Of a stretch of 64,000 nt of DNA, positions 23,654 through 36,947 are shown in pieces. Below the pieces are notes generated by a model. The model was not told the DNA's origin and did no database searches. It worked only from the letters and a program-made list of their open reading frames with translations. The DNA lies in contig JAFWRC010000139.1 in NCBI GenBank assembly GCA_017508825.1, positions 22,182-86,181 on the forward strand. Direction: 5' to 3'. Source of the DNA: Lachnospiraceae bacterium (GTDB lineage Bacteria; Bacillota; Clostridia; Lachnospirales; Lachnospiraceae). Each line of letters begins with the position of its first letter. Positions within the stretch are counted from its first letter, which is position 1. The position numbers were made by a program, and so were the translations under genes.

Positions 23654-24489
23654 CTACCGCTTCTGATCACGCGAAGCCAACATTTTCGAAAAGTCTATCT
23701 CGTTTCTTTTTCTTCCGTCAATGATATGAGACGCGTCGATAGATTCGTATCGGCCATCAAAAGTACTCAGATCCAGAATACCTTGCTCCCGAAATTTCCC
23801 GGCAACCTCGTCCACAATCAAAGCCGGCACGGTAAACGACCTTTTACCTGCCTGTTCTTCCACAGGAATGACCGATTCCGGATCTCCGAACCGTGTTCCC
23901 GTAAATTCTATGATACATTCCCCTTCGCTTTCCCTAAACGCTATCTCAATATTCTCCTCTCCGTATGAGTCGGCAAAATTCCGGATATCTTCCGATATAA
24001 GGCATAAACATCTTAACCACGAAAGATCTCTCGCTGCTTCCGCATACAGATCTCCCAGTTTTCTGACTTCCGAACCACCTTCTTTATACAGATTATAATT
24101 GGCTATCATACCGAAGAAATGATAATACTCCGGAACACACCACAAATGATCCTTATGATCCGTTCGATCCTCCCATAGTATCATGTTTCTTTCTGAACCC
24201 TGATATATCGGAATGATATCCGTGCTTAACCAATTCCAATACAGACTACACCAGATAATAAACCAAATAAATACATGGACTATGCTTCCTCCGCGACCTA
24301 TGCTATTCACAAGGAAGAGGATGCAGATCGGAAAACTGAAAAGCATTGTGTTCCGCCGTGGACACACCCCCATTTACTGTATTGAAATATATTATCAAAA
24401 AACAGCTTATCCCGCGTATCCAGAACAAAATCCAGTGCCTCAGTCACCTCGTTGCTGTCATATTTTGAATAAATGATCTCTCCCTTCAT
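23654..24489 (-). pseudogene. Frameshifted member of an unrecognised membrane-protein family
   Basis: Two overlapping open frames together match the intact relatives at 26477-27421 and 35622-36947. The first (24489 down to 24307) encodes the N-terminal motif IIYSKYDSNEVTEALDFVLDTRD; the second (24373 down to 23654) encodes the membrane part and the C-terminal part with ILWEDRTDHKDHLW and AARDLSWLRCLCLISEDIR. They are offset by one base around a run of five G at 24367-24371 (minus strand), so one lost G would explain the break. A -1 ribosomal frameshift or a sequencing error is possible. This copy also lacks part of the linker before the membrane segments. Confidence 0.7.
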
Positions 24490-26476: not shown

Positions 26477-27421
26477 TTATTCTTCCGTCTCACCAATGAT
26501 ACCGGATGCCACGATCTCTTCGTAACACTCATCATAAATACTCAGATCAAAAATACCGGTCTTTCGATACTTCTGTACCAGTTTCTCTCCGATCACAAAG
26601 GGAACCGTATAAGATTTCATAACCACTTGTTCCTTCACCGGAATGATCGCATCCGGCATGTCCTCTTTGCTTGTTTTAAAAAGGATCGTATAGTTTCCAT
26701 ACCGATCCGTATCATTGCAACCTTCTTCTTCCAGTATCTCGATCTCTATATTCTCCTCATCATATTGATCTGCAAGTGACTGTATACTCTCCGATAGCGT
26801 TCCTAAGCAACGCATCCAGGAAAGATCACGTGCCGCTTCCAGATAACTGTTCTCGAGACTTTTCAATGCAGTATTCTCAATATTACTAGTCTTTCTTTCC
26901 AGTTCCACCTTCCCAAAGAAACCATAAAACACCGGTTCACTTAACAAATGATATTTATGATCCTCCCGGTCTTCCCAGATCAGCATATCTTTTTGTTTTC
27001 CCCAGTATATCTGAATAGCAACCGGTTTGTATATTTTATAGCAGATCCAGGTTATCGGCAGTCCCCAAATAATCTTCCAGGAAAGCTCATACGTACTCCA
27101 AATCGGAATACCCGCCCATTCGAAAGGCCAGGATATCGAAAAATACCAAAACGGAGAAAGAAGTACTACCTCTTTCCAAAAATACTTCGAACGTACTGTT
27201 CTCTTCAGTCGGGACCATCTGGTTTCGCGCCCGCGCAATTCCATTCGCCGATACTCTTCACCTTTGATATAGTTTAACCGGCGCCCCCGAAAAACTGTAT
27301 TAAAAAATAGTCCATCCCGAACATCCAGAATATAATCCAGTGTCTCTGTGATCTTTCGAACATCATACTTAGAATATACGATTTCAAGATGATCTTTTCT
27401 CAAATGATCTCCTGTTTCCAT
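26477..27421 (-). CDS. Unrecognised membrane-protein family, intact member A
   Basis: The 314-residue protein has a conserved soluble N-terminus (EIVYSKYDVRKITETLDYILDVRD), a basic linker and two hydrophobic segments (about residues 95-150). The C-terminal part has MLIWEDREDHKYHLL, EAARDLSWMRCLGTLSESIQSLADQYDEENIEI and a final VIPVKEQ plus SYTVPFVIGEK module. The other members share these blocks. I know of no function. The ATG at the given start has no good binding site; a TTG six codons later has AGGAG five bases before it. It is followed by an orphan copy of its own 3' end. Confidence 0.7.
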   Translation of the reverse strand: METGDHLRKDHLEIVYSKYDVRKITETLDYILDVRDGLFFNTVFRGRRLNYIKGEEYRRMELRGRETRWSRLKRTVRSKYFWKEVVLLSPFWYFSISWPFEWAGIPIWSTYELSWKIIWGLPITWICYKIYKPVAIQIYWGKQKDMLIWEDREDHKYHLLSEPVFYGFFGKVELERKTSNIENTALKSLENSYLEAARDLSWMRCLGTLSESIQSLADQYDEENIEIEILEEEGCNDTDRYGNYTILFKTSKEDMPDAIIPVKEQVVMKSYTVPFVIGEKLVQKYRKTGIFDLSIYDECYEEIVASGIIGETEE

Positions 27422-27525
27422 TATTGTTATCTGCTCTTAACATTCTCATTTTACAATATCACAGCGATTTCTTCTACCAATCTTTTTCGTCATAAGCGCA
27501 ACTTGGAGTTGCAATCAACAGGCAA

Positions 27526-27580
27526 ACACGGGGACGGTTCTTTTGTCTGATGAAACCAGACAAAAGAACCGTCCCCGTGT
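27526..27580. repeat. Perfect 24-bp inverted repeat
   Basis: Arms ACACGGGGACGGTTCTTTTG + TCTG and their exact complement flank a seven-base loop. Closely similar GGGGACGGTTCTTTTGTC palindromes are, from memory, scattered in many clostridial genomes. It lies between the response regulator stop and the family member A gene and may also act as a bidirectional terminator, though it lacks a long T tract. Confidence 0.7.
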
Positions 27581-27606
27581 CTGCCCATTGGCTCCTATCA
27601 CTTTTA

Positions 27607-28266
27607 TCATAGATTTGTATTCTTGTTTCCCGTCAGGTAATATACCGCAAGTGCGGTACGATGCGCCAGTCCCTCTTTGGCCAGAATGTTCGAGATATAA
27701 TTTTTGACAGTGCCTTCGGAAATAAACAGTTTGTCTGCGATCTCTTTATTCGACAGCCCTTCTGCTACCGCCTTGATGATATCCAGCTCTCTTTCGGAAT
27801 ATCCGGCCGGATCAAAACTGCTTTCCGAAAGAGAGGATGCATGTTCTTTATTTCCCATACCGGCAAGTGTCTGCAGGATATGCTCTTCCATCACCCCGGT
27901 ACCGTTATAGACCGATTTGATCATCTGTTTCAGATGCTCCGGAGTATGATTTTTGATCAGATAGCCCTTCGCTCCGTTACGAAGCGCCTGCTGTACCAGA
28001 TCGTCATCATCAAATGTCGTAAGGATCAAAACCTTTCCCATATCGTGCTCAACAATATACTTCGTCGCTTCGATCCCGTCCATGACCGGCATCTGTATAT
28101 CCATCAGGAAGACATCCGGCAGTTCCTTTTCTGCCAGATCGATCGCTTCCCGTCCGTTTGCAGCGCTTCCGAGCACTTCAAATTCATCATCCAGATCCAG
28201 AATGATCTTCATTCCATCCCGCACAAAATCACTGTCATCCGCTATGATCACCTTGATCTTTTCCAT
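27607..28266 (-). CDS. NarL/LuxR-family response regulator (LnrK-like)
   Basis: The 219-residue protein has a receiver domain with phospho-acceptor Asp56 (LMDIQMP) and a C-terminal LuxR-type helix-turn-helix (YSERELDIIKAVAEGLSNKE, IADKLFISEGTVKNYISNIL). It is the last gene of the ABC exporter operon, starting 27 bases after the second permease gene, while the likely partner kinase lies upstream of the exporter as a separate unit. Because the operon carries the bipartite operator at 31479-31543, the regulator probably controls its own synthesis. It is the best candidate to bind all four operators. Confidence 0.9.
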   Translation of the reverse strand: MEKIKVIIADDSDFVRDGMKIILDLDDEFEVLGSAANGREAIDLAEKELPDVFLMDIQMPVMDGIEATKYIVEHDMGKVLILTTFDDDDLVQQALRNGAKGYLIKNHTPEHLKQMIKSVYNGTGVMEEHILQTLAGMGNKEHASSLSESSFDPAGYSERELDIIKAVAEGLSNKEIADKLFISEGTVKNYISNILAKEGLAHRTALAVYYLTGNKNTNL

Positions 28267-28293: not shown

Positions 28294-29583
28294 TCATCCC
28301 AGTTCCCAGGCATCTGCTCTTTTCAGCTTTAATCCCAGACTGCCCAGTCCCAGTATGATCCCCAGATACGCTGTCGTAGTATATAATAACACGCGGAAGG
28401 CCGCATTGTCACCAACAAATATCATCTCCGTGCCTTCCATAAACCACTTCTGCGGCATCAGCATTGAGAGTATCTTCAATGCCTCAGACATATGCGTGAT
28501 CGGAAAATACATACCGCTCAACAGCGATGAGATACACCATACGGTAAACACCGCCATTGCGCCGCCCATCACGTCTCCCATAAGGATCGCCAGAAGTGTG
28601 CTCAGGCCGCTGAAGATCAGGCCGAGCAGAAAGATCACTGCAATGAATCTTCCACGATCCATCCCCATCTCTTCCGGCTTGAGCAGCAAAGAGCATACTG
28701 CCGTGATCCCCGTCATCATCAGCGACACGATAAAACTGCATGCGATCTTGGATGCAAAATACCCGAGCGCGTTTGTATTGGTCAGCGTGATCCTTGTGAA
28801 CACTCCGTTCTTCTGTTCTTTGATCGAAGTATATGCCACAAAGAAACCGCAGAAAACAAATCCCAGCGTCAGAAAAACGAAAGCATAACCCATCCGGCTC
28901 TTCTGATTGTTCTGCTCAAAACTGAGGATCCGTCCTTCCCCTCCGGCTACGGAGATTGTCTGCTTTTCCGGCATCTGTTCATCCGCCTCCTGCATAGCCC
29001 GCACGAGATCTGCCGAAAAATTTTCCCCCATCATTCCTTTGACCGCCATAAAATCACAATATCGTTCCATCCTGGAAAACTGCAGTTTCAGTTCGCTCTC
29101 CAGTGCCTCGCGCCGGCTGTCCTCCGAAAGTATGTAAATGTGCATGGCCTCTTCCGTTTTTCCTTCCCGGATCTTTTCATCAAAATCCGACAGAATATAG
29201 ATTGCCGCGCCCAGCTTGTCTTCAAAGCCATCTTCCCGGATACGTTCTGCAATAAACATCTCCTGCATCTCGTCCCCGGATACATCTGCTCGGCATATGG
29301 TGAACAGACCGCTCTGCTGCAGATCATTCAGCAGGTATTCACTCAGATCCGTTCCCGACGCATCATAGACTTTGATGACATACTCTCCTTTCCCACCGTA
29401 ATATGCCACTTTATCCTCTGCCTTCTCCAGCTCTACGATCTCTGTTTCCGCGTCCTGCGCGATCGTAAAATCGATCCGGCTTCGCAGGATCAGTGTAGAC
29501 AAAAGCGGTGCCAGCAGGACAAAAAACCAAAAGAGTTTTGTCCGCATCAGCTGCTTCATACCTGTTTTGATCAATGTCCTCAT
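28294..29583 (-). CDS. ABC-2 type exporter permease (second permease)
   Basis: The 429-residue protein has TM helix 1 (about residues 17-36), a large extracellular domain of about 170 residues, and five or six TM helices in the C-terminal half, the plan of ABC2_membrane_3 permeases such as LnrM/LnrN (YfiM/YfiN). It overlaps the preceding permease gene by four bases. The upstream in-frame extension lies inside that gene and is rejected. Probably pairs with the other permease as a heterodimer under the ATPase encoded upstream. Confidence 0.87.
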   Translation of the reverse strand: MRTLIKTGMKQLMRTKLFWFFVLLAPLLSTLILRSRIDFTIAQDAETEIVELEKAEDKVAYYGGKGEYVIKVYDASGTDLSEYLLNDLQQSGLFTICRADVSGDEMQEMFIAERIREDGFEDKLGAAIYILSDFDEKIREGKTEEAMHIYILSEDSRREALESELKLQFSRMERYCDFMAVKGMMGENFSADLVRAMQEADEQMPEKQTISVAGGEGRILSFEQNNQKSRMGYAFVFLTLGFVFCGFFVAYTSIKEQKNGVFTRITLTNTNALGYFASKIACSFIVSLMMTGITAVCSLLLKPEEMGMDRGRFIAVIFLLGLIFSGLSTLLAILMGDVMGGAMAVFTVWCISSLLSGMYFPITHMSEALKILSMLMPQKWFMEGTEMIFVGDNAAFRVLLYTTTAYLGIILGLGSLGLKLKRADAWELG

Positions 29584-30650
29584 GCTTTTCCTCTCTTTCT
29601 GAGCACTCCTGCGAACACTGCCAGAACAGAACACAGGAGAATAATGCCACCATTGTATAATATTGCGCTTACCGTATAATCACTGTGACCCATACACGAC
29701 AGTTCCGTCAGCGCCCTGTTCACGTGATATACCGGTGATGCCAGTTTCACTGCCATCGGATGCGATGCGTACATATACGTTTCAAAACATCCGCCGAAAT
29801 ATCCGGCAACCCATGACATACCGAAAGTCAGTATGACCGTTGCCACCATATTTCCAAAAAAGCTGTAGATCATGATCCCGAATGCAGCGCCTGCCCCGGC
29901 ACAGATCAGCAGGATCCCCGAAGACAGCAGCGGATCTCCCCAGTGTACATCCAGCAGGATCACGGACAGCACTGCCGACAGCACAGAGCCGATCCCGACT
30001 GCAAGAAGGATCGGAATGAATTTTCCGAAATACAGCTTCCATTCCGCTACATTACTGACCTGATATCTCTTTCGGATGCCATACTTCTTTTCGTTCATAA
30101 AAACAGCAGTACCGCATATGATCGAATTGCAGGCAAAGTATATGATCTCCACGATGCCGTAATAATCCGTCGAATCGATCGCAGGCTTATATTCCGGATG
30201 TTCTATATGAAGTGTGATCGTATCCGTATCAGCTCCCATCCGGGTCACTGCAGCATTTGCATAAAACGCATGCAGGAAATATTCCAGGACCTTCCCCATC
30301 TCATTTTCATCACTGTTTTGATATAAAGTATAGCTGTCTTCTTCAAAGATCACGAAACCGCAATATGCACGCTCACGGATGATCTCTTCCGGATCTCCGT
30401 CCGGATATTCCACCAGTGCGATCCCGTTTTCTTCCGCCACTTCGGATAAAGCATCTGCCAGCTCCGCCGAAACTCCCTCTTCCATACGATAGCCGGCACA
30501 GACCGTTGCATCCTCATACTGTTTCATCAGATCATGAAAAGCACTGGAGAGAATGGCGATCAGGATCAGCGGAAAAAAAACATATAACAGAATATTCAGT
30601 TTGCTCCTGACCATCAGTTTCAGATTGTTTTTTATCAGATATCTTATCAT
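29580..30650 (-). CDS. ABC-2 type exporter permease (first permease)
   Basis: The 356-residue protein has TM helix 1 (about residues 18-38), an extracellular domain of about 120 residues and a six-helix C-terminal region, like the neighbouring permease. It begins at the base after the ATPase stop and overlaps the second permease by four bases, so ATPase and both permeases are translated together. In LnrLMN-type systems such heterodimers export amphipathic antibiotics such as linearmycins; the substrate here is unknown. Confidence 0.87.
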   Translation of the reverse strand: MIRYLIKNNLKLMVRSKLNILLYVFFPLILIAILSSAFHDLMKQYEDATVCAGYRMEEGVSAELADALSEVAEENGIALVEYPDGDPEEIIRERAYCGFVIFEEDSYTLYQNSDENEMGKVLEYFLHAFYANAAVTRMGADTDTITLHIEHPEYKPAIDSTDYYGIVEIIYFACNSIICGTAVFMNEKKYGIRKRYQVSNVAEWKLYFGKFIPILLAVGIGSVLSAVLSVILLDVHWGDPLLSSGILLICAGAGAAFGIMIYSFFGNMVATVILTFGMSWVAGYFGGCFETYMYASHPMAVKLASPVYHVNRALTELSCMGHSDYTVSAILYNGGIILLCSVLAVFAGVLRKRGKA

Positions 30651-31403
30651 TTAATAATCCCTCAGTTTTTTACCTGTCATTGTCAGAAATACTTCCTCCA
30701 GTGTGATCGACGAAGTATCATCCTTCACCATTTTTTTCAACTCCTCACTGCTCCCCGTTGCGATCACTTTTCCGTTATCCATGATCGCGATCCTGCTGCA
30801 GATTGCCTCCACCTCTTCCATATAGTGGCTCGTATAGATAACGGTAGCGCCGTTCTGATTGGATTCTTTGATCTTTTCCAGGATAAAATTTCTGGACTGG
30901 GGATCGATCCCGACCGTAGGCTCATCAAAGATCAGAAGTTTCGGATGATGCCCGATGGCACACGCGATATTCAGCCTGCGTTTCATTCCTCCGGAAAATG
31001 TTTTTGCAAAATCCCCTCTCCGCTCCAACAGTCCTACATACTCCAGCGCTTCGTCCGTTCTTTCCTTCAGCTGTTTTCCTTTGATCCCGTACAGAGATGT
31101 GAACAGTTCCACATTTTCCCACGCTTTCAGATTGCCATGGATCGCCAGATCCTGCGGGATATATCCCAGTTTACTGATCAGTGCTTTTCGATTGCTTTGA
31201 AAATCTTTTCCGAGAAAATCCACATTGCCCTGCGTCGGCTTCACGATGCCTGTGATCATATTCATCGTGGTACTCTTTCCTGCGCCGTTCGGTCCGAGCA
31301 ATCCGAAGATCTCACCTTCTTTAATGTCAAGCTTCAGATGATCTACAACAACACGGTTGTCATATCTCTTGGTCAGCTCATTCGTTTTCAGAATCGTATC
31401 CAT
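30651..31403 (-). CDS. ABC transporter ATP-binding protein (LnrL-like)
   Basis: The 250-residue ATPase has Walker A GLLGPNGAGKSTT, the Q loop (LGYIPQDLA), signature FSGGMKRRLN, Walker B LLIFDEPTVGID and the H-loop histidine in YTSHYMEE. The C-terminal tail is short, as in drug-export ATPases of the CcmA group. The ATG used lies 11 bases after GGAGG; an in-frame TTG seven codons upstream is an alternative. It is the first gene of ATPase-permease-permease-regulator. Confidence 0.92.
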   Translation of the reverse strand: MDTILKTNELTKRYDNRVVVDHLKLDIKEGEIFGLLGPNGAGKSTTMNMITGIVKPTQGNVDFLGKDFQSNRKALISKLGYIPQDLAIHGNLKAWENVELFTSLYGIKGKQLKERTDEALEYVGLLERRGDFAKTFSGGMKRRLNIACAIGHHPKLLIFDEPTVGIDPQSRNFILEKIKESNQNGATVIYTSHYMEEVEAICSRIAIMDNGKVIATGSSEELKKMVKDDTSSITLEEVFLTMTGKKLRDY

Positions 31404-31478: not shown

Positions 31479-31543
31479 ATTGTATATAACCGAAAATGGA
31501 TTTTGTAGTAACGAAAGACACTATTATCGGGTGACTTTCGTCA
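31479..31543 (-). promoter_or_regulatory. Bipartite operator and promoter A (exporter operon)
   Basis: Two boxes, TGACGAAAGTCA (31532-31543) and TGTCTTTCGTTA (31509-31520) read on the minus strand, have centres 23 bp apart. Twenty-two bases after the second box's CT(A) end lies TACAAT (31479-31484) as -10, with no -35. The same arrangement occurs at 34180, 34819 and 35542. It lies about 75 bases upstream of the exporter ATPase. Confidence 0.75.
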
Positions 31544-31577
31544 TATATTTTCAAAAATGAGTTTTTCCTTGGAAAAC

Positions 31578-31595
31578 TGCAAAGCAATTTCCTAT
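31578..31595. repeat. Second copy of the TGCAAAGCAATTTCCTAT element
   Basis: An 18-base exact match to the right half of the palindrome at 21728-21765. A partial left arm (CCTTGGAAAA) is present upstream of it, so this looks like a decayed palindromic element between the operator and the kinase terminator. Confidence 0.5.
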
Positions 31596-31598
31596 GAC

Positions 31599-31629
31599 AA
31601 AAAAAGCTCGTCTTCGCGACAAGCTTTTT
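31599..31629 (-). terminator. Terminator after the kinase gene
   Basis: On the minus strand AAAAAGCTTGTC pairs with GACGAGCTTTTT around a short loop and is followed by further T residues. It separates the kinase transcript from operator A and the exporter operon. Confidence 0.75.
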
Positions 31630-31678
31630 CTGTAACTGTTCCAAATCATTCTTTTCTCTTTTATATCATCCGGTTTCA

Positions 31679-33502
31679 TTATCCCTTCAGCGGTATCAGC
31701 ATGTTTACCAGAAATCCGGCTTCCGTTTCAAAACTGATCGTTCCGCCCACGGCCCGTATTCTCTGCCGCATACCGGATATTCCCATACCGTCTGTGATCC
31801 GGCTGCATCCGATACCGTTGTCCGAAACAACACAGCGCACCATCTGATTCATCACGATGATCCGGAGTTCGATCTTCTTTGCTTTGGAATACTTCATCGA
31901 ATTACTTACGGCTTCATAACAGTTATCCAAAAGCACTTCCCACAGATCATCCGGTATCGCAGACAGATCTCCTTCCGTCTGCAGCTCCGCTTCCATCCCC
32001 TTTGCTTTGCAATCCGCACATAGTTCATGGAGATGGATCAGCGCCATTTTTTTCTTTTCCGGCCGTTCCTTTCGCAGGATCATACGTATCTCATCCATCC
32101 CGCTACGGAGCTGATCGATCACCGCCTGGATCATCCCACGTGTCTTTTCCGGATCTTTTTCCAAAAGCAGCTTACTTGCTTCCAGCTGATAGATCGAACC
32201 GTTGATATTATGTCCCAGCCGGTCATGCAGTGTCTGCGTAAGCTCGGCGCGTTCCGTAAGGATCCGGTTCTCCGCCATCAGCAGTGTTTTCTTACGTTCC
32301 TCACGTACCGCCATCTCTTTTTTGATATACATTTCCACGATCTGTACCAGCAGGGTAAACAGAAAGATTGTCAGACCGATACGCAGGAAATTTCCGTTAA
32401 CGCTGAGTTCCTTCCCCATAAAGATATACCGTATCACATCGATCAGACCTCCTCCCAGAAAGAAGACCGCGCCGAAATAGAAGTAATGAAGTCCTTCATC
32501 GATTCCCTTTTTCCTGCAATATCTTCGGTTCTGTACCAGCATCAGTCCGATCTGAAAGATTGAGAATGCATAGTAGGGCATGATCAATCCCATCATCCTG
32601 TGCATATCTATCCCATAGACAAATCGAGCGATCAGGGCAATCGTCATGATCACCACCAGAAATGCAAACGCGATCTTCGGATGCAGGGGATTCCTTCGTT
32701 TTGTAATGGAATAAATAAACCGCTCAACCGGATAGATCATAAAAAGCAGAAGCGTATAATCCAGAACACGCAGCGCATTGGTCATGCGGATCAGCATCTG
32801 CGGCACATCGGTTTCGATCATCGTCCACAAACCGATCATGATCACGCTGATCCCGAAGGAAAAAAGATCATAACCTGCCGCATTCTCCCTCGCGATCGCA
32901 AAATGGAAAACAAGAATGGAAAGCCCCAGAAAAACGATCAATCCGGACAGCAGGAATGCAAATCCTCTTGCCCGAAAGATCAGATAATAAAAATCCTGCG
33001 TACTGCAGATGATCACATCCGAAAAACGTCCGCCGTTTGCTCTGGCGTGAACCAGTTCCACATCCAATACAACTTCTTTTCCGGCATCCTGCGGGGTAAG
33101 CGGCACCGAATGGTAAACATCTCCGGTTCCGTAGCCGGTCAGATTCTCCACCGGCTCATACCGATAAATGCATGCTCCGTCTATATACACATCAAAGAAC
33201 AGATTATGACTGCTGATATTCAGCATCTCCCCGGGCAGAATCTCCTCCGGAAGCCTACGATGCACACGGATCGCCGGAACCTCTTTGGTCTCCGTGGCAA
33301 GTTTATGCATATTCACCGGCTCGTTTTTCTCACTGAACCATCCGTCAGTACACAGCTGATAATGTTCCCCCGGATAGCTCCGGATCCCGTCCGAAAAATC
33401 CGTCCCCGTCACCAGAAATAACAAAAGCACCACGATCACGATACCATATAAGATACCCGTGACCGTGATGCGATGTTCGGAAACCGTTTTTTCTTCTGCC
33501 AT
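31679..33502 (-). CDS. Sensor histidine kinase, HisKA_3 type with 7TM-like sensor (LnrJ-like)
   Basis: The 607-residue kinase has one N-terminal TM helix, an extracellular domain of about 140 residues resembling the 7TMR-DISM extracellular type, then about seven TM helices (roughly residues 178-390). The catalytic part has phospho-acceptor His426 in TLHDRLGHNINGS, and its ATPase region has the N-box (LDNCYEAVSNSMKYSKA), DNGIGC and GMGISGMRQR. This HPK7 class pairs with NarL-type regulators, here the one at 27607-28266. The ATG chosen follows AGAGG at good spacing. It has its own promoter and terminator. Confidence 0.9.
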   Translation of the reverse strand: MAEEKTVSEHRITVTGILYGIVIVVLLLFLVTGTDFSDGIRSYPGEHYQLCTDGWFSEKNEPVNMHKLATETKEVPAIRVHRRLPEEILPGEMLNISSHNLFFDVYIDGACIYRYEPVENLTGYGTGDVYHSVPLTPQDAGKEVVLDVELVHARANGGRFSDVIICSTQDFYYLIFRARGFAFLLSGLIVFLGLSILVFHFAIARENAAGYDLFSFGISVIMIGLWTMIETDVPQMLIRMTNALRVLDYTLLLFMIYPVERFIYSITKRRNPLHPKIAFAFLVVIMTIALIARFVYGIDMHRMMGLIMPYYAFSIFQIGLMLVQNRRYCRKKGIDEGLHYFYFGAVFFLGGGLIDVIRYIFMGKELSVNGNFLRIGLTIFLFTLLVQIVEMYIKKEMAVREERKKTLLMAENRILTERAELTQTLHDRLGHNINGSIYQLEASKLLLEKDPEKTRGMIQAVIDQLRSGMDEIRMILRKERPEKKKMALIHLHELCADCKAKGMEAELQTEGDLSAIPDDLWEVLLDNCYEAVSNSMKYSKAKKIELRIIVMNQMVRCVVSDNGIGCSRITDGMGISGMRQRIRAVGGTISFETEAGFLVNMLIPLKG

Positions 33503-33535
33503 ATGACCAATCCTCTCTTCGTGTCGGATATATGA

Positions 33536-33564
33536 ATTATACGCCATACAGCAACGGTTTACAA
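33536..33564 (-). promoter_or_regulatory. Promoter of the kinase gene
   Basis: TTGTAA and TATAAT with a 17-base spacer on the minus strand. It lacks the bipartite operator, so the kinase is probably made independently of the regulon it controls. Confidence 0.6.
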
Positions 33565-33571
33565 CTTGCCC

Positions 33572-34132
33572 TCATTTTACATAGATCACTCTGGATGCTT
33601 CCAGATTCTGATAGTGATCGTATCCGAACATTACACCATCTCTGTTTCCGGTACGATCCGAATAGTCCAGCAATACGGCAAACGCTGTACCACTGTCATT
33701 AACGAGTGCATAAGGTTCCAAAACGTATCCGGACATCGGCGTCGACATAAGCCCCAGTTCTTCCGGCGTGCAATCCCAGGGATTAAATCCCATCACCTCT
33801 GCTACGGTTTCCGTAAACTTACAATGTCTGTATTGAACCGGAAGCGGACTGGTATTGATATCACACAGTGGCAATGTATATCCGGGATACGGCTTTGTGA
33901 GTTCATTGATCCAATATGTACTGCCATCCGTTGCCATCTGAACATCATGATCCATAAGAGCATAGGTGATCGCGCTATGCATCGTATCGCAAAACTGTGT
34001 ATCCGCAGATACTTTTCCTTTTTCGATATAACGGATCAGCTGAGGTGCCAGCACACCGATCAGTATTGCCATGATCGCGACCACAATGATCAGTTCAACC
34101 AGCGAGAATCCTTTGTTGTTTTGTCTTTTCAT
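33572..34132 (-). CDS. Orphan type IV prepilin-like protein
   Basis: The 186-residue product has a class III signal: a short basic leader, NNKG^FSLVELIIVVAI with cleavage expected before Phe and the conserved Glu at mature position 5, then one hydrophobic helix ending near residue 31. The remaining 150 residues are a soluble head with two cysteines that could form a loop and a C-terminal YGYD-type strand region. No pilus ATPase, PilC or prepilin peptidase gene is nearby. Its promoter carries operator B, placing it in the exporter regulon. It could be a minor or competence pseudopilin. Confidence 0.85.
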   Translation of the reverse strand: MKRQNNKGFSLVELIIVVAIMAILIGVLAPQLIRYIEKGKVSADTQFCDTMHSAITYALMDHDVQMATDGSTYWINELTKPYPGYTLPLCDINTSPLPVQYRHCKFTETVAEVMGFNPWDCTPEELGLMSTPMSGYVLEPYALVNDSGTAFAVLLDYSDRTGNRDGVMFGYDHYQNLEASRVIYVK

Positions 34133-34179
34133 TATATTTCCTCCGTTTGCATTGTTGCTGCATCAACTATGTTAAGCGC

Positions 34180-34244
34180 ATTATATACAAACGGCGGAAG
34201 GGTTTGTAGTGAAAAAAGACATATTATTGCTATGACTTTAGTCA
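34180..34244 (-). promoter_or_regulatory. Bipartite operator and promoter B (prepilin)
   Basis: Boxes TGACTAAAGTCA (34233-34244) and TGTCTTTTTTCA (34210-34221) on the minus strand have centres 23 bp apart. TATAAT (34180-34185) follows 22 bases after the second box's ACT. The prepilin start is about 48 bases beyond the -10. Confidence 0.75.
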
Positions 34245-34250
34245 CATTAT

Positions 34251-34754
34251 TTATTTCTGCTTTGCATCCAGTTCGATCCAATACTCTCCGTCCGGAGAAT
34301 AATGAATGTCAACCCGGTCCGATAAAGTCCAACGTCTGGGATCCCTGGCATACACTTCGGAAACGATCTTTTTCTCACATCCGTTTTTCTCATCATAAAA
34401 AGATGCTACAACCCGGTATACGTAACAGTGATACCGGTATTCATCTGATGTGATCTCTTCACCGATTCCATAATTATAACGGTATTTTTTTACCTCTGCG
34501 ATCTTTCCTTTCACCGCAGGATACTCAAGCATACGATGCATATGCTCGATATTTTTCCGGTTCTTCACATTGTTTGTCAGATCCATCATAAAAAAAAGAA
34601 ACGCCGATACCGCGACAACGATCAGGATGTATCTGACACCCGCCTCATCTACGCCGCTTTTCACCAGCGTTGTTTTCAGCCAGACCCCACCCAGGATAAT
34701 AAATACCCCAAAACAGGTTCCCAGTGAACTCTTCCCATATCCCATAGGTGTCAT
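34251..34754 (-). CDS. Small membrane protein, DUF3592-like, function unknown
   Basis: The 167-residue product has two N-terminal hydrophobic helices (about residues 11-55) and a soluble C-terminal domain with KGKIAEVKKYRYNYG, YRYHCYVYRVVASFYD and a final VDIHYSPDGEYWIEL. The TM pair followed by an SH3-like beta domain resembles DUF3592 proteins; the match is by pattern only. The third in-frame ATG is preferred because GGGAGG lies nine bases before it, and the first ATG has no site. The gene is controlled by operator C. Confidence 0.65.
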   Translation of the reverse strand: MTPMGYGKSSLGTCFGVFIILGGVWLKTTLVKSGVDEAGVRYILIVVAVSAFLFFMMDLTNNVKNRKNIEHMHRMLEYPAVKGKIAEVKKYRYNYGIGEEITSDEYRYHCYVYRVVASFYDEKNGCEKKIVSEVYARDPRRWTLSDRVDIHYSPDGEYWIELDAKQK

Positions 34755-34818
34755 CTGTGCCATCCTCCCGAGTGAATGATCTGTATCCATCGCACTATAA
34801 CAGTCGTTATAACAAAAT

Positions 34819-34883
34819 ATTATAATCCCTATTCATTCACCGGTGTAGTGACAAAAGACACTTTTTATATGTGACTTTCGTCA
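34819..34883 (-). promoter_or_regulatory. Bipartite operator and promoter C (DUF3592-like gene)
   Basis: Boxes TGACGAAAGTCA (34872-34883) and TGTCTTTTGTCA (34849-34860) on the minus strand are 23 bp apart centre to centre. TATAAT (34819-34824) lies 22 bases after the second box's ACT. This is the most symmetrical of the four sites. Confidence 0.75.
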
Positions 34884-34908
34884 CATAGTACTTACCTCAT
34901 TATACGGA

Positions 34909-35457
34909 TCATGCCGAAAGACTGACGCTGTCTTTCAGATAATCCACTATAGGGTCCGTATACTTAATATCCGAGAAATCACAGGAAGAAGAGATCATCT
35001 CTGCCAGTTCCCTGTCCTTATCACTCGCATCTTTCTTTTTCTTAAGAGCAGATACAAACATCTTCATTGCCATCCTGCAGGGCACACTCATCTTTTCGTA
35101 ATTATAACCTCCCTGGCAATAGAATGCTTTTATATATTTCCGCTGCTCATCGGTAAGCATGTTCTGCAGCATTTTTTCTGCCTGCGGATTATCATTGGTA
35201 CTTCCGCCGACGCAGAATACTGCCAGACGTTTCTTTTTCCATGAAGGTGCTTTATCCAAAAACCATTTTGCCTTGACCAGTTTCTCCGCCATCGCCCATC
35301 CGCCGTATACGATCGCATCATACTTTGCGAAAAATACATCATCCTTTTTCTGTGCATCCTTCAGATCCAGCAGATCCGCATTCGTCCGCTCTGCGATCCA
35401 TCTGGCGTATTTTTTTGTAAATCCCGTCTGTGACGTGTAAACTATAAGTGTTTTCAT
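34909..35457 (-). CDS. Flavodoxin-domain protein
   Basis: The 182-residue protein begins MKTLIVYTSQTGFTKKYARW, the FMN phosphate loop of flavodoxins (T/SxTGxT), followed by YDAIVYGGW (second FMN loop) and FCVGG. It resembles the flavodoxin_5/HemG-like group rather than a small electron-transfer flavodoxin. The 42 upstream codons in frame overlap operator D's transcript start and lack a site, whereas the chosen ATG follows AGGAG. It is controlled by operator D. A redox role in envelope stress is inference. Confidence 0.83.
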   Translation of the reverse strand: MKTLIVYTSQTGFTKKYARWIAERTNADLLDLKDAQKKDDVFFAKYDAIVYGGWAMAEKLVKAKWFLDKAPSWKKKRLAVFCVGGSTNDNPQAEKMLQNMLTDEQRKYIKAFYCQGGYNYEKMSVPCRMAMKMFVSALKKKKDASDKDRELAEMISSSCDFSDIKYTDPIVDYLKDSVSLSA

Positions 35458-35541
35458 ATTTCCCTGATTACTCCTTTTCTTTTTTTCCTCCGAACGTGGT
35501 GTCCTTTGGTCGTAACAATACGTTATAACAACACTTATAAC

Positions 35542-35605
35542 ATTATACTCAAAAGCCTTATATTTTCCAGTGAAAAAAGACACAACGATAATATGACTAA
35601 AGTCA
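35542..35605 (-). promoter_or_regulatory. Bipartite operator and promoter D (flavodoxin gene)
   Basis: Boxes TGACTTTAGTCA (35594-35605) and TGTCTTTTTTCA (35571-35582) on the minus strand are again 23 bp apart centre to centre. TATAAT (35542-35547) follows after 21 bases. Confidence 0.72.
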
Positions 35606-35621: not shown

Positions 35622-36947
35622 TTAATTTTCTTCTTCTTCGATACCTGTGAAAATATCCGTTCTGTCCGTCAATTGAAATGCCTTCGAATTCTCACGGCTT
35701 CCGTATTTCTTCAGATCATATTGCATTCTTCCTTTGTTTTCTTCCAGGTATTTTCCTGTCTTTTCAAAAGATCTGTCCCATACATCCAGCCGCAGCCTGC
35801 CACTCCTGTATAATTCCCGCAGCATCTTTTTTCCGACCGGAGAAGGCAGTACAAAATCCATGTGAACCGATTGTGTTTCTACCGGAACAACGGTGTCCTG
35901 CTCCCCCATGACAGATCCGCTCAGATAACCTTTATATAACCCCTCTTTTTCTACATAGTATACTTCGAATTCGATCTTTCCTTCATCGCCTCCACACCGT
36001 TCCGCAAATCTCCTCACCTCTTCAGATAACAGGCAGAGGCAGCGGAGCATGGAAAGCTCACATGCATACTCCAGAAGATTTCTTGCGTGATACCGCACGC
36101 CCTTATATTTTACATTGGTATGAACCAGGTTTTCCTCAAACTGTTCCGCTTCCAGTTTCCGTAACACCCTGTTGCCGGACAGACCGCAGAATTCTTCTGT
36201 GGTCCACAGATGTGCTTTGACATCTGCCCGGTCCTCCCAAAACACCGCAAGCGGATCCGGCAGATCATGAATCTCAAAACGTTTTCTTCCCAATAACCCC
36301 TGATAAACAATAAAAACAACCGCATAAACGACTGCCGAACTCAATACGTCTTTGAAAAAATCTCCTGTCTCCGGAATGAAAACATACATTATCACATACC
36401 AGAGCAACACCGTGCACAACAAAGCATGCCATGTACTTTTTCGCAACACAAACTTTCCAAGCCTGTATCCTGCTCCTTTTTTCCTGCCACCTTCTTTTCC
36501 CAAAAATTCAATATCCCGTTTTCTCCTCGTTTGAATGACCGGAATCCGGATCCTCTTCATCGACTCCTTATAAATGCAGACCCAGAGTACGATAAACAGC
36601 GCTGCCATGAACCAGAGACCTCCGGGATCATATATGTATGCTTCAGACCACCGGGCATACAGGATCATCGTAACGAACCAGCCGACGATACAGACGAATG
36701 CATTCCAGTATAGTTTTCCCAAGACACGCCATACACTGCTCGTCCTGTTTCTTTCGTTTTTTTCGGATACCGGATAAGCCTCATCACTGCGTACGTACCC
36801 CAATTTACACCATTTAAAAACTGTCCCCCAAAGATAAGCATCCCGAAGATCCAGAACATAGTCCAACGCCTCCGTCACTTTCCGGCTGTCATATTCCGAA
36901 TATACGATCTTATTCTCTGTTTTTTTCTTTGTATTTTCCGTTCTCAT
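35622..36947 (-). CDS. Unrecognised membrane-protein family, intact member B
   Basis: At 441 residues this is the longest member. It shares the N-terminal block KIVYSEYDSRKVTEALDYVL, then has four hydrophobic segments in two pairs (about residues 75-130 and 175-220, an extra pair relative to member A). After that come VFWEDRADVKAHLW, the YACELSMLRCLCLLSEEVRRF block and a C-terminal module with VVPVETQ and FVLPSPVGKKML. It ends in an extra charged tail with a Glu-rich end. The function is unknown. CAGGAG lies about 14 bases before the ATG. An inverted repeat overlies its upstream region. Confidence 0.72.
   Translation of the reverse strand: MRTENTKKKTENKIVYSEYDSRKVTEALDYVLDLRDAYLWGTVFKWCKLGYVRSDEAYPVSEKNERNRTSSVWRVLGKLYWNAFVCIVGWFVTMILYARWSEAYIYDPGGLWFMAALFIVLWVCIYKESMKRIRIPVIQTRRKRDIEFLGKEGGRKKGAGYRLGKFVLRKSTWHALLCTVLLWYVIMYVFIPETGDFFKDVLSSAVVYAVVFIVYQGLLGRKRFEIHDLPDPLAVFWEDRADVKAHLWTTEEFCGLSGNRVLRKLEAEQFEENLVHTNVKYKGVRYHARNLLEYACELSMLRCLCLLSEEVRRFAERCGGDEGKIEFEVYYVEKEGLYKGYLSGSVMGEQDTVVPVETQSVHMDFVLPSPVGKKMLRELYRSGRLRLDVWDRSFEKTGKYLEENKGRMQYDLKKYGSRENSKAFQLTDRTDIFTGIEEEEN

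Follow-up and report, generated by a model that had tools for sequence, protein, structure and literature searches.

Four minus-strand promoters in a stretch of 64,000 nt from an anaerobic Lachnospiraceae bacterium (GCA_017508825.1, contig JAFWRC010000139.1, positions 22,182-86,181, forward strand; hereafter the window) share a two-part element, and these sites are very probably DesR-type operators for the response regulator encoded at 27607-28266, which, judging from sequence comparison, would activate an ABC exporter operon together with the genes for a prepilin, a small membrane protein, and a flavodoxin. Operators of this type are known, usually from the front of one family of membrane exporters; the unusual local features are three extra operator-bearing promoters and a sensor that looks exchanged.

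Architecture and significance of the four operators

The element had been described in a first-pass annotation of the window, and all four sites were found as described, on the minus strand. Each consists, in order, of a perfect TGAC-N4-GTCA outer box (4/4 promoters), 11 bases, a degenerate inner 12-mer, and a -10 hexamer. The inner 12-mers, in the order in which the sites are listed, are TGTCTTTCGTTA, TGTCTTTTTTCA, TGTCTTTTGTCA, and TGTCTTTTTTCA. Two TGAC-N4-GTCA-like boxes had been proposed for every site, which is correct for the outer box; the inner box is only a degenerate half-copy, with TGTC on the left and TTYA, GTTA, or GTCA on the right, and no second full palindrome is present. The half-site forms a direct repeat, in that TGTC, one change away from TGAC, lies 23 bp downstream in 4/4 sites and 21-24 bp downstream in relatives.

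The 23-bp box spacing, originally taken as fixed, holds at all four window sites; among 46 tabulated sites it is 23 bp in 35, 21, 22, or 24 bp in ten, and mis-set in one (G223, entered as 15 and by eye 23), and this tabulation led us to reject it as a fixed family trait. From the inner 12-mer, the -10 hexamer is reached after 24, 24, 24, and 23 bp, not the 22, 22, 22, and 21 bp first given; with 24 bp in 38/46 tabulated sites, this step is at least as steady as the box spacing. When the -10 hexamer is set as -12 to -7, the box centres fall at -42.5 and -65.5 in three promoters and 1 base nearer in the fourth, in agreement with the earlier estimates of about -42 and -65. At 17 bp from the -10 hexamer, the family conserves CTACAAA (38 sites with the 24-bp step), which matches the TTGACA of a -35 element poorly. 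The reported lack of a -35 element stands for three promoters and fails for the flavodoxin promoter, where TGGAAA-16-TATAAT is a passable match (10/12) of a kind that occurs at chance level in the stretch (16 vs 17.1 in shuffles).

The 46 sites are a chosen set, not every site seen. They include sites from 8 of the 15 close regulator loci (L025-L038, L060); L030 and L033 were omitted as presumed duplicates of G149 and G008, L027 was read and left untabulated, and L028, L029, L031, and L035 lack an ATPase start with upstream sequence. G016_ABC and G028_orph, identical across the site, are both included, and only one of the identical sites on G019 contigs C104 and C120 was used.

A scan of the window with the pattern of the first-pass annotation at up to 2 mismatches gave 8 matches, each of the 4 places being counted once per strand; when the window was shuffled 100 times, the mean was 1.06 matches, and no shuffle reached 8. 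Across the draft genome (3.78 Mb, 328 contigs, 89.7% complete), the 40-base pattern at up to 3 mismatches recovered these 4 sites only (reversed control, 0), and a free gap of 8-14 again recovered these 4 alone (reversed control, 2). The motif is therefore not at random frequency genome-wide, and its uniqueness to these 4 sites supports the local regulon proposed at first pass. The bare palindrome TGAC-N4-GTCA is unenriched in the draft genome (37 places vs 44 in the reversed control); thus, it is the bipartite arrangement that carries the signal. A matrix was trained on 28 sites taken from other genomes, each with a spacing of 23 and a core of at least 9/12; this matrix, with this genome (G000) and genome G019 held out, ranked the four sites as the top four of the window (55.4, 47.1, 43.9, and 28.6). 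Ranks 5-9 (11.7 to -1.8) are opposite-strand readings of the same sites, the first unrelated position scores -2.8, and the maximum over 60 Markov-control sequences of 64 kb is 3.2. A chance origin was rejected on the basis of the shuffles, the uniqueness in the genome, and the held-out ranking.

The candidate binder and the distribution of its site

Comparisons among genomes make the response regulator at 27607-28266, the candidate already named at first pass, the likely binder of the four sites; one line of evidence is its co-occurrence with the site in family genomes. The strict site is present in 11/18 genomes with the regulator (E<=1e-70) vs 3/379 genomes without it (Fisher p=1.3e-14), that is, in 14/397 family genomes, with 19 sites vs 3 reversed-control matches. 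The regulator and site samples each comprise 397 family genomes; their handles agree where listed, and identity genome by genome is unchecked. In the three genomes with the site only (G204, G309, and G409), a fragment of the exporter ATPase gene lies directly behind it, either where the contig ends or as part of a fused frame. Conversely, 6/7 family genomes with the regulator only (G003, G106, G164, G333, G223, and G199) carry TGAC-N4-GTCA in perfect form upstream of the ATPase gene, and the strict-pattern counts therefore understate the operator. Within the genus, the regulator is found in 15/35 genomes and the operator in 13 of those 15, the contigs of G007 and G034 ending before it; the strict pattern gives 16 matches in 8 genomes, all of which bear the regulator (control, 2). 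Additionally, the recognition helix of the window regulator reads GTV(K/R)NYIS, as in DesR, and VraR (entry 5hev) has KTVKTHVS. A plasmid search for the regulator returned 175 records, every one below 60% identity.

Two rearranged loci were observed among these genomes. In G309 (L138 5474-6208), a single frame joins the ATPase start, the kinase end, and the helix-turn-helix of the regulator, with an intact-looking operator in front. In G323 (L134 9718 to end, and L148), the exporter is on contig C20 without a site, and a site is found at the end of C11 beside transposase-like sequence; by eye, it looks as if an insertion uncoupled the operator from the exporter operon.

The arrangement is not special to this locus. 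In relatives, the operator precedes the orthologous exporter operon. In a phylum sample, the exporter ATPase (E<=1e-78) was found in 30 of 398 genomes, from which 28 loci were scanned; the locus of the present genome and that of G213, a family member, were excluded, as was a further G646 copy, for which no locus was given. A perfect palindrome lies within 260 bp upstream of the ATPase gene in 24/28 loci, with 1 in the remaining 96 kb. Exactly 24 bp further on, a TATAAT-like hexamer matches at least 4/6 positions in 22/24 sites and at least 5/6 in 16/24; the second-box offset of 22-24 is partly fitted, because the best value from 20-25 was taken. Thirteen named loci have more distant regulators, and all 7 of them whose ATPase reaches at least 49% (L039-L043, L045, and L055) have the palindrome between or before the genes. 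By eye, the second box of these loci lies at 22-23 bp in six cases and at about 32 in Cohnella L042; no palindrome was found at L046 and L048, which have no ATPase at that level. Palindromes with other centres (TGACTGCGGTCA and TGACCACAGTCA) were seen at the distant NarL-family loci L062, L065, L068, and L073, which suggests sub-types of the same operator.

From the sequences, their conservation, co-occurrence, and domain make-up, we infer how binding, dimer loading, activation, and signal might proceed. The phosphorylated regulator would first load, as a dimer, onto the perfect outer palindrome, whose centre is at about -65.5, and would then fill the weak inner box (centre about -42.5), from where it may assist RNA polymerase, the -10 of these promoters being good and their -35 poor. 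In this way it would turn on the exporter operon to which it belongs and, in this lineage, also the prepilin, possibly with the kinase behind it, the small membrane protein, and the flavodoxin. The ancestral circuit would have been exporter autoregulation, with the operator later also placed before other genes, and the kinase core here carries a receptor of a type that also occurs on diguanylate cyclases.

Several observations weigh against this interpretation. G160 has the regulator with only a degenerate site, and the palindrome is absent from the 260 bp upstream of the ATPase gene in 4/28 phylum loci. The whole-sequence score of the regulator is higher to VraR (5hev, 131 bits) than to DesR (115 bits), and L046 and L048 carry TVKNYIS yet have no palindrome, so the helix motif alone is not predictive. 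Finally, the flavodoxin site was seen in this genome only.

Additional targets, the kinase, and alternative explanations

Beyond the exporter operon, the operator precedes the prepilin gene with the kinase gene behind it, the small membrane protein gene, and the flavodoxin gene. The first-pass gene list for the four promoters is correct in naming the exporter with its regulator, the prepilin, the small membrane protein, and the flavodoxin, and it left out the kinase downstream of the prepilin. The prepilin and small-membrane-protein sites recur in G019. Other operator-bearing genes encode two membrane proteins, alike by eye, in G001 and G323, and an unrelated protein of 236 amino acids in G019; targets were therefore probably gained more than once. 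Pfam searches at E<=1 gave 0 families for the small membrane protein and only weak, unrelated matches for the other targets L105 10074-10721 and L111 1989-2699. Four T2SSE-family ATPases pass the Pfam cut-off in this genome, and therefore a machine able to use the prepilin may exist; 13/14 control genomes pass as well. As a separate observation, G028 (L113 9580) has an extra operator and -10 hexamer behind a gene for 1553 amino acids with no exporter following, and in G016 the ATPase gene follows the same gene and site.

The kinase gene lies just downstream of the prepilin gene and outside the exporter operon, from which a hairpin separates it, and has a promoter-like element of its own. The short kinases aligned here (G001, G018, G023, and G149) have 377-393 amino acids and 4-5 hydrophobic segments. 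The long kinases, with 622 amino acids in this genome and 610 in G019, comprise, by hydropathy scan, an N-terminal segment, an ecto domain, 5-6 further segments, and then the core, which is 64-65% identical to the cores of the four short kinases. Relatives of the sensor part occur in 14 other genomes of 299 and are fused to a GGDEF domain (diguanylate cyclase) in 7/7 best loci. On this comparison, the kinase looks like a sensor chimera, in which a receptor known elsewhere from GGDEF proteins precedes the exporter system's HisKA_3 core. A seven-helix receptor is at most suggested, since the single 7TMR-DISM match, in one of the seven sensor loci, is sub-threshold (19.2 bits vs a cut-off of 29).

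In G019, the exporter ATPase was not found at E<=1e-100, and a remnant similar to the permease B end sits between the kinase and the regulator (L110 13032-13296). The kinase (88%), regulator (92%), prepilin (89%), and small protein (79%) are retained. G019 appears to have lost the exporter and to have kept the kinase, the regulator, and two extra targets with their sites; the loss is read from one imperfect assembly, with 8% estimated contamination and doubled contigs. Taken together with the chimera, this raises the possibility, a somewhat improbable one, that a two-component core of kinase core, regulator, and operator, which serves its own exporter in most of the relatives examined, was re-plugged at both ends, with a diguanylate-cyclase-type receptor replacing the sensor as input and a surface programme (prepilin, membrane protein, flavodoxin) added as output, and that the new circuit outlived the exporter in G019. 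If true, this circuit would stand midway between a self-defence switch for an exporter and a response that leads from a receptor to the surface.

The extra sites also bear on whether the exporter-operon site alone works, the prepilin, small-protein, and flavodoxin sites being weakly bound or without regulatory use. Single targets are described in the accessible parts of the literature both for LnrK of Bacillus subtilis (lnrLMN only; PMC7472640) and for RR11 (one specific operon; PMC11034029), and the flavodoxin site is unseen in other genomes. However, the extra sites outscore the exporter site on the held-out matrix (43.9-55.4 vs 28.6) and keep the -10 spacing, and two of them recur in G019, where the exporter is seemingly lost, which makes a single working site unlikely. 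That the regulator represses some or all of the four promoters is very unlikely: des and yvfRS are down in a B. subtilis YfiJK gain-of-function strain, with the mechanism unknown according to the accessible part of PMC4672918, but the layout is that of an activator: both boxes lie upstream of about -37, the -35 is poor, and the 24-bp step to the -10 is steady.

CRP/FNR-type activators can act from near -41.5. Binding of the four sites by such an activator is nevertheless extremely improbable: HcpR has the consensus TTGAC-N4-GTCAA, with the same TGAC-N4-GTCA core, in some delta-proteobacteria and two cyanobacteria (PMC1274295, accessible part), but the TTGAC...GTCAA flanks are present in 0/4 outer boxes, the perfect copy sits at -65, not -41, and the site tracks the response regulator and exporter across genomes, so that this candidate was rejected on flanks, bipartite form, and co-occurrence, with no search made for CRP/FNR genes in the genome.

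The features of the locus are listed in Table 1. Behind the regulator gene, a long hairpin at 27516-27590 has 34-nt arms, 91% matched, with GGGGACGGTTCT; by eye, similar motifs lie upstream of the exporter in L027 and L168. The proteins encoded at 23654-24373, 26477-27421, and 35622-36947 share, by eye, a similar stretch (YSKYD..., LDxVLDxRD-like), and the two of them tested against Pfam at E<=0.001 gave no match.

Table 1. Operators, genes, and intergenic elements of the locus in the window.
Feature	Position	Strand	Remarks
Operator 1	31509..31543	-	Outer box 31532-31543, inner box 31509-31520; -10 TACAAT 31479-31484; precedes exporter-regulator operon
Operator 2	34210..34244	-	Outer box 34233-34244, inner box 34210-34221; -10 TATAAT 34180-34185; precedes prepilin, kinase behind
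Operator 3	34849..34883	-	Outer box 34872-34883, inner box 34849-34860; -10 TATAAT 34819-34824; precedes small membrane protein
Operator 4	35571..35605	-	Outer box 35594-35605, inner box 35571-35582; -10 TATAAT 35542-35547; precedes flavodoxin
Exporter ATPase	30651..31403	-	Start TTG 31424 in open reading frame list; comparison favours ATG 31403
Exporter permease A	29580..30650	-	ABC2_membrane_3; SagH-like match weak
Exporter permease B	28294..29583	-	Start GTG 29634 in open reading frame list; ATG at 29583
Response regulator	27607..28266	-	Receiver and LuxR-type helix-turn-helix; proposed binder of the four operators
Prepilin-type protein	33572..34132	-	N-terminal methylation motif
Histidine kinase	31679..33502	-	HisKA_3 core after multi-helix receptor; start ATG 33547 in open reading frame list
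Promoter-like element TTGTAA-17-TATAAT, prepilin/kinase gap	33536..33564	-	Consensus match only; chance-level class of match in stretch
Hairpin with T-rich end, kinase/exporter-operator gap	31597..31633	-	Terminator-like by reading
Small membrane protein	34251..34790	-	Pfam: none at E<=1
Flavodoxin-domain protein	34909..35457	-	Start GTG 35583 in open reading frame list overlaps operator; ATG 35457 preferred

Comparison with known systems

The first-pass annotation had compared the sites with those of NarL-type regulators, and NarL/NarP of enterobacteria do belong to the same regulator superfamily. NarL/NarP promoters carry TACYYMT heptamers, unlike the TGAC half-sites, and this heptamer does not match the window sites. 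A better match is the DesR/YvfU/RR11 operator in the accessible parts of PMC7726353 and PMC11034029. The DesR motif, ATGACA-N2-TGTCAT, and the RR11 motif, ATGACATTTGTCAT-N7-AGTGACA (both from the accessible text of PMC11034029), contain TGAC-N4-GTCA, and the operator is therefore of a known kind.

The DesR/des system of B. subtilis resembles the window locus in this motif, in the combination of an inverted with a direct repeat (PMC7726353, accessible part), and in a NarL-family regulator with the GTV(K/R)NYIS helix. It differs in that the product of des is a desaturase, and in that DesK, as described in the same part of that paper, has five helices and no extracellular domain, whereas the window kinase has a long ecto domain. 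In the window, as in DesR/YvfU/RR11-type systems, the NarL-family regulator and HisKA_3 kinase adjoin an ABC exporter. YvfRS-YvfTU-like clusters of Firmicutes and the pneumococcal TCS11/RR11 likewise combine an exporter, a kinase, and a regulator with des-like promoters in the accessible descriptions, with the second TGAC of RR11 starting 22 bp after the first vs 23 bp in the window. Their regulon is there described as their own cluster, unlike the window, with its four promoters, two permeases, and a kinase outside the exporter operon. Nearest in gene make-up, as far as the available descriptions go, is LnrJK-LnrLMN (YfiJKLMN), with one ATPase, two ABC-2 permeases, a kinase, and a regulator. 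For the yfiK-yfiL gap, the accessible part of PMC4672918 reports no recognisable promoter elements, and the target of LnrK, stated to be lnrLMN alone in the accessible part of PMC7472640, is its own exporter operon, unlike the four operator-bearing promoters that are candidate targets here.

The comparison can be condensed into a rule, i.e., TGAC-N4-GTCA, followed by a second box after 21-24 bp and by a -10 hexamer after a further 24 bp, by which targets of DesR/YvfU-like regulators can be read from sequence, since it held in most exporter loci of the phylum sample. No DesR-type regulon with a prepilin or a flavodoxin was found in the literature searched, which mostly excludes subscription papers. 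The described systems, as far as their accessible texts go, list one target operon; the window locus, with four candidate promoters and an apparently exchanged sensor, offers a natural case of a two-component system gaining both inputs and outputs.

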